DNA of 10,389 bases from the NCBI GenBank assembly GCA_009914575.1, contig WNEB01000038.1:1-10389 (forward strand), in the 5' to 3' direction. Below, piece after piece: positions 5,911-10,389 of the stretch (within the stretch, counting starts at the first letter, position 1; the number at the start of each line of letters is the position of its first letter). Below the pieces are notes generated by a model. It was given only the letters and a program-made list of their open reading frames with translations, was not told where the DNA came from and made no database searches. A program made the translations under genes and the position numbers. The DNA is from Burkholderia gladioli. Its GTDB lineage: Bacteria; Pseudomonadota; Gammaproteobacteria; Burkholderiales; Burkholderiaceae.

Positions 5911-6078
5911 CAAAATGCTGTCGTTTTGGGGTTGCACAGCGGCACGAGGCCGCCCTCGTCGCGGTTGGCGGCGAGGCCCGGTGCGGCCGAGCGAGCATGC
6001 TCCGCAGGCGCGTGCCACAAGGGTTTCGGGCACAGCACAGGCCGGAGCGGCGTGCGGGATTCTTGGAGATAAGGCGAG

Positions 6079-6084
6079 ATTCTA
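6079..6084 (-). promoter_or_regulatory. Candidate dnaA promoter -10
   Basis: On the minus strand TAGAAT matches TATAAT in 5 of 6 positions. No good -35 lies 16-18 bases upstream. The perfect DnaA box occupies the region about 26-34 bases upstream of this -10. If used, the leader would be about 160 nt. Confidence 0.4.
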
Positions 6085-6109
6085 CCGCCAAACGCGGTGC
6101 GAGCGGGAG

Positions 6110-6118
6110 TTATCCACA
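6110..6118 (+). promoter_or_regulatory. Perfect DnaA box
   Basis: TTATCCACA is the exact consensus high-affinity DnaA-binding 9-mer. Its CCACA is mirrored four bases later by TGTGG (6123-6127), so two core half-sites face each other. It is just upstream of the probable dnaA -10, where DnaA binding would repress dnaA. Confidence 0.85.
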
Positions 6119-6185
6119 GGGGTGTGGCGATCGGGTGGGTGGCCCAGGGTTGTCGCACACAGGGGGCGGGAACGGGCCTAAAGTA

Positions 6186-6214
6186 TTGACCGCCAAGAGA
6201 AAACCGGTTTAAAT
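6186..6214 (+). promoter_or_regulatory. Probable sigma-70 promoter for rpmH operon
   Basis: TTGACC (6186-6191, 5 of 6 to TTGACA) is followed by a 17-base spacer and TTAAAT (6209-6214, 4 of 6 to TATAAT). Immediately after is the perfect palindrome GCGGATTCCGC (6216-6226) at the expected transcription start. The leader to the rpmH ATG would be a little over 100 nt. Confidence 0.6.
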
Positions 6215-6328
6215 AGCGGATTCCGCGAAAACCAATCCAAGATTTTCGGCGATTGCGTTCGCCCGGTTCGCCTGAAGCTCGGGTACGCGGTCCCTGATTA
6301 CCGACATTCTCGAACAAGTGAGAGCAAC

Positions 6329-6463
6329 ATGAAACGTACCTACCAACCGTCCGTTACCCGTCGCAAGCGCACCCATGGTTTCCGCGTCCGCATGAAGACG
6401 GCAGGTGGCCGCAAGGTCATCAACGCACGTCGCGCGAAGGGCCGCAAGCGCCTCGCCATCTAA
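6329..6463 (+). CDS. rpmH: 50S ribosomal protein L34
   Basis: Encodes the 44-residue, very basic L34: [18 protein letters not shown] followed by [26 protein letters not shown] and a TAA stop. This is essentially the universal bacterial L34 sequence and length. L34 binds 23S rRNA in the large subunit. The ATG at 6329 is preceded by GTGAGAG, a modest ribosome-binding site. First gene of the rightward operon, with the rnpA coding region beginning 16 bases after its stop. Confidence 0.99.
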
Positions 6464-6479
6464 GGACGGGCCCAGCGCC

Positions 6480-7040
6480 GTGTCCGCCGTTCGCGGCGAT
6501 GCGGGCAGCAGCGCCGCCGGCGCGGGTGTAAGCCCGTCGCAGGCGGCTGCCGCATTCCCGAAAGCCGCGCGGCTTCTAAAAACGGATGAGTTCTCATCCG
6601 TTTTTCGTTTGCGGCCGTGGCGGCGTTCCGCGCACTTTGTCGTGTACGGCAAGCCGACCGGTGAAGCCGGCCGGCTCGGGCTCGTGATCGGCAAGAAGTT
6701 CGCGCCGCGCGCGGTCACGCGCAATCTGGTGAAGCGGCTCGCGCGCGAGGCGTTTCGCCTGCGCCGTGCCGAGTTCGCCGGTTGGGACATCCTGCTGCGC
6801 CTGCATACGCGTTTCGACAGGAAAGCCATGCCGAGCGCCGCATCCGCGCCGCTCGCGGCGCTCTGCGAGGGCGAGATCCGCGAACTGCTCGATCGGGCGG
6901 TGCGCGAAATCGCCCGACGCGGCGCCGCGCCGGCAGGTGGCGACACGCGTGTGCGCACGGTTGGCCAGCCGGCCGCGAGTGCGCCGGAAGCGGGCGCGCG
7001 CGCTTGGGTGCCGCCACCCGATGGCCCGGCGCACGGTTGA
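6480..7040 (+). CDS. rnpA: Ribonuclease P protein component
   Basis: Encodes the basic protein that binds the P RNA (rnpB) and pre-tRNA leader in 5' maturation of tRNAs. From GTG 6480 it is 186 residues. The core is clear: [17 protein letters not shown] at 26-42, [17 protein letters not shown] at 66-82 and the conserved RNR helix [16 protein letters not shown] at 78-93. Usual family length is about 115-140, so this one has about 20 extra N-terminal residues and a Pro/Ala/Gly-rich C-terminal tail of about 40. No ATG exists in frame before the core. GTG 6480 is the first plausible start after the rpmH stop, with AAGGA 13 bases upstream. A frame-open GTG at 6405 lies inside rpmH and is less likely. 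A perfect palindrome (6578-6605) sits within the coding sequence. Confidence 0.93.
6578..6605. terminator. Terminator-like perfect palindrome inside rnpA
   Basis: AAAAACGGATGAG (6578-6590) and CTCATCCGTTTTT (6593-6605) are exact inverted repeats around TT, giving an RNA stem ending in a U-run: the architecture of a bidirectional Rho-independent terminator. It begins 114 bases after the rpmH stop and encodes [10 protein letters not shown] of RnpA. It could cut rnpA-yidD-yidC transcription relative to rpmH. The surrounding codons (CTA, AAA, GAT, TCA, GTT, TTT) are A/T-rich for this genome. Confidence 0.65.
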
Positions 7041-7100
7041 TTCAATGCCGTGCCGGGCATGCCCGACACGGCAGGAGGGCGGCGCGCGAGCGCCACTGCT

Positions 7101-7367
7101 ATGCAAACGGTTCTGATCGCGTTGCTGCGTTTCTACAAGGCTGCCCTGAGCCCCCTGCTCGGCAGCCGTTGCCGTTTTTATCCTTCCTGTTCGGAATACG
7201 CGCGCGAGGCAATCCAGTATCATGGCGCCGCGCGCGGTACTTACCTGGCCGTCAGGCGCGTGTGCCGGTGTCACCCGTTTTCGGCGGGCGGCATCGATCT
7301 CGTTCCGTCGCCCCACTCCGATAGCCGCGCTCCCAACGAAGCGGAAGCGCCGTCCCATCGACTCTGA
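7101..7367 (+). CDS. yidD: Membrane protein insertion efficiency factor YidD
   Basis: Encodes an 88-residue protein of the YidD (DUF37) family, thought to help YidC-dependent insertion at the inner face of the cytoplasmic membrane. Signature pieces: amphipathic N-terminus [18 protein letters not shown], then [16 protein letters not shown] at 23-38, and [17 protein letters not shown] at 53-69, including the family's conserved cysteines. ATG 7101 is chosen because the family begins there; the upstream frame-open residues to 7050 look unrelated. The strong AGGAGG at 7073-7078 is 22 bases away, unusually far. The stop is 8 bases from the yidC ATG, so the two are surely co-transcribed and probably translationally coupled. 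Confidence 0.95.
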
Positions 7368-7375
7368 GACAACGC

Positions 7376-9031
7376 ATGGATATCAAACGCACCGTCCTAT
7401 GGGTGATTTTCTTCATGTCAGCGGTCATGCTGTTCGACAACTGGCAGCGAGCCCATGGACGCCAGTCGATGTTCTTCCCGAACGTCACGCAGACCACCGG
7501 CGCGTCGTCCACCGACGCCAGTAACGGCGCTTCGGCGGCGAGCGGCACGGCAGCCTTGCCAGCCGTCTCGACGGCCGCACCGTCGACCACAGCGCCCGCG
7601 GCACAGGCGCAGCTCGTGCGCTTCTCGACCGACGTCTACGACGGCGAGATCGACACGCGCGGCGGCACGCTGGTCAAGCTGACGCTGAAGAAGGAAGGCG
7701 ACGGCAAGCAGCCGGACCTGTTCGTCACGCTGTTCGACCATTCGAAGGATCACACCTACCTTGCGCGCACCGGCGTGCTCGGCGGCGATTTCCCGAACCA
7801 CAACGACGTGTTCACGGCCGTGGCCGGCCCCACCGCGCTGACGGGCGACCAGAACACGCTGAAGCTCGCGTTCGAATCGGCCGAAAAGGGCGGCGTGAAG
7901 GTCGTGAAGACCTACACGTTCACGCGCGGCAGCTATGTGATCGGCGTCGATACGAAGATCGAGAACGTCAGCACCGCGCCGGTCAATCCGACGGTCTACA
8001 TGGAAATCGTGCGCGACAACGAATCGGTCGAGACGCCGATGTTCTCGCATACGTTCCTCGGGCCGGCCGTCTACACCGACCAGAAGCACTTCCAGAAGAT
8101 CTCGTTCAGCGACATCGACAAGAACAAGGCGGAATTCGTCAGCTCGGCCGACAACGGCTGGGTGGCGATGGTTCAGCACTATTTCGCGTCGGCATGGATT
8201 CCGCAGCAAGGCGTCAAGCGTGACATCTACGTCGAGAAGATCGACTCGCTGTACCGCATCGGTGTGAAGGAGCCGGTGAAGACGATTGCGCCGGGCCAGT
8301 CGGCCGACGTATCGGCGCGCCTGTTCGCGGGCCCCGAGGAAGAGCGCATGCTCGAGTCGATCGCACCGGGCCTCGATCTCGTCAAGGACTATGGCTGGGT
8401 GACGATCATCGCCAAGCCGCTGTTCTGGCTGCTGCAGAAGATCCACAGCTATGTCGGCAACTGGGGCTGGTCGATCGTGCTGCTCACGCTGCTGATCAAG
8501 GCCGTGTTCTTCCCGCTGTCGGCGGCAAGCTACAAGTCGATGGCGCGCATGAAGGAAATCACGCCGCGCATGCAAGCGCTGCGCGAGCGCCTGAAGGGCG
8601 ACCCGCAGAAGATGAATGCGGCGCTGATGGAGCTGTACAAGACGGAGAAGGTGAACCCGTTCGGCGGCTGTCTGCCGGTGGTGATCCAGATTCCGGTGTT
8701 CATCTCGCTGTACTGGGTGTTGCTCGCGTCGGTGGAAATGCGCGGCGCGCCGTGGATTCTCTGGATTCACGATCTGTCGCAGCGCGATCCGTTCTTCATT
8801 CTGCCGGTGCTGATGGCGGGCTCGATGTTCCTGCAGACGCGTTTGAACCCGACGCCGCCGGATCCCGTCCAGGCCAAGATGATGATGTTCATGCCGATCG
8901 CATTCTCGGTCATGTTCTTCTTCTTCCCGGCCGGCCTCGTGCTGTACTACGTCGTGAACAACGTGCTGTCGATCGCGCAGCAGTACTACATCACGCGGGC
9001 GATTGGTGGCAAGAAGAAGGCCGCAACCTGA
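7376..9031 (+). CDS. yidC: Membrane protein insertase YidC
   Basis: Encodes a 551-residue Gram-negative YidC (YidC/Oxa1/Alb3) that inserts and folds inner-membrane proteins alone or with SecYEG. Seen: N-terminal membrane helix at about 5-20; a low-complexity Ser/Thr/Ala linker to about 80; the large periplasmic beta-domain at about 80-330; and the conserved five-helix core from about 345, with [20 protein letters not shown] at 371-390, the cytoplasmic helical hairpin to about 425, [16 protein letters not shown] at 427-442, [15 protein letters not shown] at 474-488 and [19 protein letters not shown] at 502-520. The C-terminus is Lys-rich. The groove position that is Arg in E. coli is Lys375 here, which retains the charge. 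Last gene of the operon before a strong terminator. Confidence 0.98.
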
Positions 9032-9068: not shown

Positions 9069-9106
9069 AAAAAAGCCGCCCGAGCGTGAAGCTGGGCGGC
9101 TTTTTT
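9069..9106. terminator. Strong bidirectional Rho-independent terminator
   Basis: AAAAAAGCCGCCC (9069-9081) pairs perfectly with GGGCGGCTTTTTT (9094-9106). The inner AGC/GCT can extend the stem with a bulge. T-runs exist on both strands, so it can end yidC transcripts on the plus strand and the convergent regulator gene on the minus strand. Confidence 0.95.
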
Positions 9107-9162: not shown

Positions 9163-9585
9163 TCAACGCGCCGACGCGTCGCCGTAAAACTGTTCGATCA
9201 GCTCCTGCACCAGATAACGATGGTGCGGCGAGAGTGCCTCGAGCTTGGTGGCCAGCTCGATGGTTTCCGGCGTGAGCGGATAGGTGGTGTCGCGCGGCAG
9301 CGGCTTGGGCACGTCGCGTGCGGCCACCGACGGCGGCGGCCCGTAATGCAGCCAATGTGCGTCAACGCGTAGCCAGTCGGCGAGCGTCGCGAGCTTGTCC
9401 GGTGTCGGAATGGTGCGTCCGGTCAGCCATTTGTGAGCGGTTTGCGGAGAAACGGGGTGCTCGCCATGGTGCCGCAGGTTGAAGTGCAGCGCGAGTTCGG
9501 TCGCGCCGCCCACTTTCTCCGGGCTGCGCATCAGGGCGAATTTCAGGCGTTCGGAAAACGCCGTTTTTTCTTCGGGCGTCGGCAT
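9163..9585 (-). CDS. Small XRE-type helix-turn-helix regulator
   Basis: Encodes 140 residues. Residues about 8-82 resemble a Cro/C1-type DNA-binding domain: FSERLKFAL, then GGATELALHFNLRHH, PVSPQTAHKWLTGRTIPTPD (recognition helix and following turn, about 44-63), and KLATLADWLRVDAHWLHYG. The C-terminal part (about 96-135) is a short helical segment, ETIELATKLEALSPHHRYLV then QELIEQFYG, which may aid dimerisation. ATG 9585 (MPTPEEK) is preferred; a TTG at 9624 is frame-open but lacks a ribosome site. It converges on yidC across the shared terminator. The target is unknown. Palindromes upstream (9603-9653) could be its own operators. A diverged partial copy lies at 10021. Confidence 0.8.
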   Translation of the reverse strand: MPTPEEKTAFSERLKFALMRSPEKVGGATELALHFNLRHHGEHPVSPQTAHKWLTGRTIPTPDKLATLADWLRVDAHWLHYGPPPSVAARDVPKPLPRDTTYPLTPETIELATKLEALSPHHRYLVQELIEQFYGDASAR

Positions 9586-10020
9586 AGGCCGGATTGTGCA
9601 ATTGGCGCGTTCTGTCGCAGACAACTAGTCGCGCCATATTTATCTCAAATGAGTGTTGATTCACCCGATCGGTGGCCGATTTCGCCCTCGATGCTATCTC
9701 GTAAAGTCTTGTCGAGACGAGAAAAGCGAGAAATACGCAATAAGGGCCACAATCCATAACTTAGCGTAATTAAGAGAAGATGGGGTGGTTCGAAGCACGG
9801 AACCCTGCGTGATGGGTGGCATGACACGGTCGCCGATCCGGGCATCCATCGATGTCGCGCCATCTCATTAATGCAACTAACGGTCTATTTTCAAGCCTCG
9901 CGCCAGTGTGGCGTGTCGTCGCGATATGGGTGAAGAAATCATCGCGCAGGGGTGTCGGCGCGCGGTGATTCTGTTGTGTCGGCACGACGCAGACACGTCA
10001 GGAGGTGAGTGCTGGCTTCA
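9586..10020. other. Non-coding interval with palindromes upstream of the regulator
   Basis: No convincing gene is seen in these 435 bases. It is more A/T-rich than the core cluster. Near the regulator start are GGCGCG (9604-9609) paired with CGCGCC (9630-9635), the inner TGTCGCAGACA (9613-9623), and CTCAAATGAG (9644-9653). Further out, TCTCGT (9697-9702) and ACGAGA (9717-9722) are inverted. The first group is placed where promoter and operators of the minus-strand regulator should be. No exact -35/-10 is assigned. Confidence 0.4.
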
Positions 10021-10182
10021 TCAGTCCGGAGCACTGCCGTAGAACTGCTCGATCAGTTCCTGCACGAGGTAGCGGTGATGTGACGAGAGTGCTTCGATCT
10101 TGGTGGCGAGCGCGATGGTTTCCTGCGTTGGCGGATAGTGTTCGTCACGCGGCAACGGCTGAGGTGTGGCGGGGTGCGGCGG
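10021..10182 (-). pseudogene. C-terminal fragment of a second XRE-type regulator
   Basis: The last ~45 residues of this frame, LPRDEHYPPTQETIALATK followed by IEALSSHHRYLVQELIEQFY and GSAPD, match the C-terminus of the 9163-9585 protein almost position for position (LPRDTTYPLTPETIELATK and so on). Upstream, similarity stops at about 10170-10182 and the helix-turn-helix half is missing. The frame stays open to about 10380 but codes unrelated residues. The DNA is clearly diverged from the intact copy, so this is an old paralogue rather than a fresh duplication, cut by an insertion or recombination whose edge is near TGTCCCAAAC (10183-10192). Confidence 0.7.
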
Positions 10183-10200
10183 TGTCCCAAACGTAGTTGA

Positions 10201-10279
10201 AGGTTGAAGGCGGCGGTTCCCGTAGGAATCCGAGAGAATCGGGTTTCCAGGACCAACCTCCCGAATAGGAGAACCGCCG
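10201..10279 (+). promoter_or_regulatory. Highly structured leader of the downstream reading frame
   Basis: Three pairings are visible: CGGCGGTTC (10211-10219) with GAACCGCCG (10271-10279), 9 bp perfect; GGAA plus CCGA (10225-10233) with TCGG plus TTCC (10239-10248), loop GAGAA; and AGGTTG (10201-10206) with CAACCT (10254-10259). The first and third cross, so all together would be a pseudoknot, or they are alternatives. The 9-bp pairing covers the spacer between AGGAGA (10267-10272) and ATG 10282. It could be a translational switch or the end structure of a mobile element. Confidence 0.45.
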
Positions 10280-10281
10280 AA

Positions 10282-10389
10282 ATGAAGCCTACCAAGAAAC
10301 CGAACCGTCGTGCTGATGCTGAGTGTCGTGTTGTTGGTAAACAAGAGCACGAAGCGCTGCGCGCGGGCCTTGCCGAGCAAGCCCAGTTG
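10282..10389 (+). CDS. Unidentified reading frame, N-terminal 36 residues (runs off window)
   Basis: ATG 10282 follows a good ribosome-binding site, AGGAGA, at a 9-base spacing. The frame stays open to the window end: MKPTKKPNRRADAECRVV, then GKQEHEALRAGLAEQAQL. The start is basic and hydrophilic, then helical and rich in Ala, Glu and Gln; no signal peptide or membrane segment. I do not recognise the family. Its position directly beside a broken regulator and structured repeats suggests cargo or a transposase gene of an inserted element, but this is inference. Confidence 0.45.
   Translation, partial: MKPTKKPNRRADAECRVVGKQEHEALRAGLAEQAQL

Follow-up and report, generated by a model that had tools for sequence, protein, structure and literature searches.

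Near the start of rnpA in Burkholderia gladioli, inside the codons of the gene itself, there is a real palindrome (6578-6605 of the window, by which we mean the whole 10,389-nt stretch of contig WNEB01000038.1 analyzed here), and comparison with related genes indicates that an RNA element coincides here with an essential coding sequence and is under selection beyond the needs of the protein. We say so because the element is conserved, because synonymous variation within it is scarce, because its stem covaries and because the U-tract that follows is kept even when the encoded residues change. What might such an element do? Our reading, which we hold to be probable though well short of certain, is that the hairpin would act as a partial, translation-sensitive intrinsic terminator, holding transcription of rnpA, yidD and yidC below that of rpmH. 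A first-pass annotation made from the letters alone had proposed much the same, and its interpretation, taken as a whole, is partly supported.

The minus strand of the window carries gyrB (assigned by translation only), dnaN and dnaA, and the plus strand carries rpmH, rnpA, yidD and yidC (Table 1). The start of rnpA is probably the GTG at 6480, which has AAGGA at 6462-6466, 13 nt ahead of it; a further in-frame GTG lies at 6405, and these starts stand 34 and 59 codons ahead of the ACG codon of the hairpin. (The rnpA frame is open between 6405 and 6480, across the second half of rpmH back to the earlier GTG.) Elsewhere in the window, a near-perfect palindrome, TGCCGTGCCGGGCATGCCCGACACGGCA, occupies 7046-7073, between the rnpA stop and yidD; a perfect 13-bp inverted repeat just 3' of yidC (AAAAAAGCCGCCC / GGGCGGCTTTTTT, 9069-9106) resembles a usual intergenic terminator that works in both directions; and two minus-strand ORFs, 9163-9624 and 10021-10380, have the C-terminal stretch HHRYLVQELIEQFYG in common, as from a partial duplication.

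Table 1. The rnpA hairpin, its parts and the operon genes around it, in coordinates of the window
Feature	Position	Strand	Remarks
rpmH (ribosomal protein L34)	6329..6463	+	PF00468, E 5.3e-23; upstream neighbor of the hairpin
rnpA (RNase P protein)	6480..7040	+	PF00825, E 3.9e-22; hairpin lies within the RnpA domain match
A-tract	6578..6581	+	Pairs with U 6602-6605, lengthening the stem to 12 bp
Core stem, 5' arm ACGGATGA (8 bp)	6582..6589	+	Codons ACG GAT GA
Tetraloop GTTC	6590..6593	+	Third base of the Glu codon free to vary in relatives
Core stem, 3' arm TCATCCGT	6594..6601	+	Codons TCA TCC GT; pairs with ACGGATGA
U-tract TTTTCGTTT	6602..6610	+	Codons GTT TTT CGT TTG; a short rpmH transcript is predicted to end at or just after it
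yidD	7101..7367	+	PF01809, E 7.9e-29; downstream, would be under the hairpin
yidC	7376..9031	+	PF14849 and PF02096; downstream, would be under the hairpin

The palindrome reads AAAAACGGATGAG TT CTCATCCGTTTTT, and the exact 13-bp inverted repeat of the earlier annotation is just as it was described. The codons at the site are AAA ACG GAT GAG TTC TCA TCC GTT TTT CGT TTG, and the residues encoded by the palindrome are KTDEFSSVF; we number from ACG (0), so that GAT is 1, TCA 4, TCC 5, GTT 6 and TTT 7, with AAA preceding codon 0. Folded as RNA, the site forms a 12-bp stem closed by a GUUC tetraloop at -13.9 kcal/mol (z of -5.95 relative to dinucleotide shuffles, none of the 200 being equally stable), and the hairpin persists when 177 nt of the window, starting just 3' of the rpmH stop, are folded together. 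Its form is that of an intrinsic terminator, with a stem of at least five pairs including G-C, a short loop and a U-rich tract directly after the stem, and its position is operon-internal, after a ribosomal protein gene and ahead of other operon genes. The minus strand also folds, ending in TTTTT. A simple terminator scan of the window left the 6578-6605 site out of its output, presumably because A5 and T5 were counted as stem; an Rfam search of 6000-7500 gave nothing over the gathering score (its one hit, isrG, scored 14.7 bits where the cut-off is 100), and plasmid records gave no match.

How widely is the element distributed? Genomes were searched with a degenerate form of it, with the reversed pattern as control, around the reference genome G001 (Burkholderia sp. 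Ac-20379, locus L001). Within the family of G001, at no more than two mismatches, 116 of 150 genomes match and the control finds none; in this sample each matching genome has the element at a single place, which does not fit a dispersed repeat such as an uptake sequence, parS or a REP-like element, and among the family matches listed at least 1 of the 116 (G024) lies outside rnpA. At three mismatches or fewer, the order (which we take to cover most betaproteobacteria) yields 95 matching genomes out of 250, against 3 for the control, a count of 95 that includes the poor matches G391 and G372, not assigned to a place, and some matches outside rnpA; extra places appear at three mismatches in G175 (one) and in G314 (several variant copies). 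Some of the 155 order-level genomes without a match at that threshold carry rewritten stems. At class level only 2 of 171 genomes match, as many as with the control, and these are G001 itself, in rnpA, and G440, at another place. RnpA itself was located in 143 of 150, 231 of 250 and 178 of 185 genomes in three protein or family searches. The four further ACGGACGAYTTCTCGTCCGTTTT copies outside rnpA in G314 (L297-L300), whose rnpA carries the element, form near-identical hairpins with a T-tract and apparently lie between genes, as judged by eye.

For closer comparison we used 244 distinct loci, of which 194 were from the family and order and 50 from the class (the best 30 hits plus 20 hand-picked of 178), and 40 more from the order. 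Carriers number 170: 164 of the 194 with seven or eight of the eight core pairs and six of the 40 added by eye (L257, L265, L270, L278, L294 and L295). Because the loci were hand-chosen from hit lists, 170 of 234 is no frequency. The remaining 64 of the 234 order-level loci have no hairpin by this definition (they include the bulged or interrupted stems of L086, L088, L089, L179 and L180), yet they too have rpmH before rnpA. On a quick tree of RpmH, RnpA after the motif and YidD, built from 62 carrier representatives, the 64 noncarriers and 10 of the 50 class-level loci, hairpin presence has to change at least 15 times, although the tree, made from short proteins, is weak and does not separate gain from loss.

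Nucleotides, and not only residues, are being preserved, as synonymous sites indicate. We expressed synonymous entropy relative to codon use in the same stretch of the gene, over the 170 carriers and the columns in which the residue is at least 85% conserved. At codons 0, 1, 4, 5, 6 and 7 it is 0.03, 0.25, 0.15, 0.00, 0.00 and 0.10, whereas it is 0.40 at the AAA codon, 1.0 at the loop codon and 0.70-1.10 at 21 other conserved columns. The annotation had remarked that codons here are unusually A/T-rich, as if selected for RNA structure, and selection of these codons for nucleic acid structure is supported. The codons are rare ones: TCA makes up 0.8% of Ser, GTT 2.2% of Val, TTT 3.1% of Phe and AAA 7.3% of Lys codons (usage being taken from five neighboring ORFs, of which those of gyrB and dnaA probably include some upstream extension). 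When codons were shuffled within the gene and folded in 36-nt windows, the 194 family- and order-level loci gave a mean z of about -2 at the motif only. Taken singly, 23-31% of these loci reach p of 0.01 or less in the peak windows, and no comparable stability peak was found in the 50 class-level loci. In the windows that flank the hairpin, order-level loci are less structured than their codon shuffles, with a mean z of up to about +0.65.

The tract that follows the stem is preserved as well, and here the protein does change. All five bases of the tail are T in 154 of 164 loci; 4 loci have four T and 6 have three. Codon 8 stands for R, S, A, N, G, H or other residues, yet 154 of 164 loci have T as its third base (background 15%); codon 9 starts with TT in 155 of 164. 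The result is a near-invariant TTTTTnnTTT, longer than the A side across the stem, where the Lys codon is AAA in 147 of 160 (against a background of 32%). The annotation's further suggestion of a terminator in both directions is, given this asymmetry, not well supported, even with the preference for AAA.

Does the stem covary? The annotation had asked whether the arms covary or are kept at synonymous sites, and both are seen. The covariation set consisted of 57 distinct carrier sequences chosen for having seven or eight core pairs, and because they were selected by pairing, the percentage paired is no evidence; what counts is that both partners have changed in four of the eight core pairs (15 cells), a level matched by 0 of 500 shuffles, and slid structures give 0. 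A U-A pair formed by two third codon positions becomes C-G when GAT..TCA becomes GAC..TCG (L176, with GAT..TCG, has the wobble). Other replacements alter the protein: A-U becomes G-C with T-to-A and V-to-A changes in L093 and the L240 group, and A-U becomes C-G with E-to-A and S-to-A in the L240 group. Two adjacent pairs have changed in L170, and further covariants are L257, L265 and L278 (C-G) and L294 (A-U at the same pair). On the quick, weak tree, three covarying pairs changed at least five times (the third-position pair), twice and once. In the clade of L240 and L242-L246, the palindrome has been rewritten to GCGGATGC..GCATCCGC, with compensated residue changes and only three T after the core stem. 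Read on the plus strand, wobbles comprise 11 G-U cells vs. 2 A-C, an excess that leans toward a plus-strand RNA, with 9 of the 11 G-U at one pair and some inherited together. The core sequence is also more constant than pairing alone demands, and there may be an additional, sequence-specific reader of it.

The protein at the site deserves a word of its own, since the annotation had called it a conserved RnpA segment. For part of it the description holds: F at position 3 is common in both sets of noncarriers and V-F at 6-7 is common at class level, less so in the 64. For T, D, S and S it does not, in that positions 0, 1, 4 and 5 are T/A, D, S and S almost invariably in carriers and vary in the 64 order-level noncarriers and the 50 class-level loci, a comparison that is partly circular because carriers are defined by pairing (the synonymous sites are not circular).

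We think an intrinsic terminator is the best reading of these facts because the hairpin is so regularly a terminator-like site and because of the copies in G314. Of the 170 carriers, 167 have a terminator-like site, at -7 kcal/mol or better, within the 300 nt that begin at the rpmH end, against 27% in shuffles; in 156 it falls exactly at the hairpin. The corresponding numbers are 22 of 64 for the order-level noncarriers (shuffles 19%) and 5 of 50 for the class-level loci (shuffles 11%); the 22 are at scattered places, and relocated terminators in noncarriers are thus unconvincing. Several things speak against termination: the L240 clade keeps its hairpin with just three U, and many lineages are without the hairpin and have no clear substitute, so that the hairpin seems dispensable or sometimes replaced, given so modest and scattered an excess of terminators where it is lacking. 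The constancy of the core beyond the needs of pairing, and the moderate chance (14-21%) that the peptide by itself yields the stem, also count against it.

If it is a terminator, the rest can be imagined as follows. One piece of DNA would serve two purposes, encoding a conserved start of RnpA and an RNA hairpin of 8-12 bp followed by a U-tract. Transcripts without a ribosome trailing closely on rnpA would mostly end near 6605-6611, and the product would be a short rpmH mRNA with a terminal hairpin; when the start of rnpA is being translated, the ribosome would block hairpin formation and allow read-through. In E. coli, a trailing ribosome stops terminator hairpins from forming (PMC5021804). 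Termination would be partial, since genes that we take to be essential lie downstream. The outcome would be much L34 and little RnpA, YidD and YidC from one operon. The gene order suits this arrangement: the annotation had placed the site after the L34 gene, and rpmH precedes rnpA in 256 of 256 loci (244 of them distinct), with yidD present in 167 of 170 carrier loci. So does the frame, for an ATG, GTG or TTG stands in frame upstream of the hairpin in 169 of 170 carrier loci (the exception is L265), as expected if translation passes through the hairpin, which the annotation had also said. As to a ribosome-mediated attenuator of the trp or his type, the spacing between the rpmH stop and the ACG codon is anywhere between 41 and 235 nt among 164 carriers, and so offers no fixed leader.

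There are other ways to account for a conserved hairpin. It is possible, if improbable, that the element works after transcription, as an RNase processing or 3'-stabilizing site, a ribosome pause or an autoregulatory site for RnpA or another protein, with the U-tract secondary. A hairpin and a plus-strand lean among the wobbles would suit any RNA function, and the three-U tail of the L240 clade fits such a role; neither pairing nor processing, however, accounts for a TTTTTnnTTT kept independently of the encoded residues, and near-identical units recur at apparently intergenic places in the carrier G314.

It is considerably harder to believe that the palindrome is a DNA site bound by a dimeric protein, such as a one-site operator or an origin-linked site near dnaA. 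That idea draws on the near-invariant core, the fixed 4-nt spacing, the limit of one place per family genome and the presence of dnaA upstream in 128 of the 144 carriers with at least 700 nt of sequence before rpmH. It conflicts with arms that change together at four of eight pairs, so that no single fixed sequence is being read (a symmetric site could partly mimic this), with G-U outnumbering A-C and with a T-tract that has no mirror of equal length; a regulon, moreover, would need further copies, and there are none at two mismatches or fewer in the 150 family genomes. Very improbable, too, is a terminator directed against antisense transcription from yidC toward dnaA, its sense effect suppressed by translation: the minus strand does fold and end in TTTTT, and AAA is favored, but of the two tracts the A side is the shorter and the more variable, and the wobbles lean to the plus strand.

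How far, finally, could the protein and chance go by themselves? Part of the way, as it turns out. The peptide TDE-F-SSV is self-complementary at first and second codon positions and already makes most of the pairs there, so that the chance of the 8-bp core stem, given the protein and local codon usage, is as high as 14% (Watson-Crick) or 21% (with G-U). Nor can the length of the palindrome serve as proof of function, a perfect arm of at least 12 (loop 3-8) arising somewhere in rnpA in 106 of 3000 codon-resampled genes; it is conservation, not arm length, that puts the site beyond chance. Even so, that the whole is a by-product of protein conservation and chance codon choice is scarcely credible when synonymous invariance is limited to the stem and U-tract, when changes are compensated and when stem plus TTTTT has, in one genome, a probability of 7.5e-5 given the same protein and usage.

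A partial, translation-sensitive terminator would not be without relatives. In E. coli, partial terminators inside operons follow ribosomal protein genes in rplL-rpoB and rpsU-dnaG. These, like the candidate here, separate a highly expressed ribosomal protein gene from low-abundance operon genes, but they lie between genes, whereas the rnpA hairpin is inside the downstream coding sequence and conserved with it. In E. coli K-12, too, rnpA follows rpmH and has a hairpin among its first codons (L301:416-438, GGGAGUUA..UAACUCCC), one that differs in sequence, is centered about six codons upstream and has no U-tract; L190 carries a repeat similar to it. A 1985 paper on E. coli rnpA is said to discuss rnpA termination. 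Coding-region intrinsic terminators relieved by translation have been described for E. coli rsxC and narY, and without EF-P, there is less of the long rsxC transcript and no difference in vivo for narY (PMC5021804). They share with rnpA a hairpin and U-rich tract within an open reading frame; they were chosen by prediction in single genes, whereas the rnpA element is widespread, covarying and near the start of an essential gene. In Methanococcus maripaludis, internal termination in ribosomal protein operons is reportedly tied to differing gene levels (PMC10450193), but this is an archaeon, and a conserved intracoding hairpin is not known to be part of it. In the open-license literature that we searched, no rnpA terminator is described. 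Operon-internal terminators and coding-region terminators relieved by translation are, as kinds, already known.

One may go further, and we do so tentatively, with more doubt than conviction. Perhaps rnpA is its own attenuator leader; that is, translating its first codons would license transcription to continue through rnpA and on into yidD and yidC, the output of RNase P protein and membrane insertase would follow translation, and the needs of an RNA would have dictated the T, D, S and S of RnpA across many betaproteobacteria. The element itself would be a clear example of an RNA signal that overlaps essential codons and is kept across much of a bacterial order, an RNA apparently saved by changing the protein (T-to-A compensated with V-to-A, E-to-A with S-to-A). 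It would offer a possible answer to how one operon can give high L34 and low RnpA, and it may provide a natural, conserved reporter of transcription-translation coupling.
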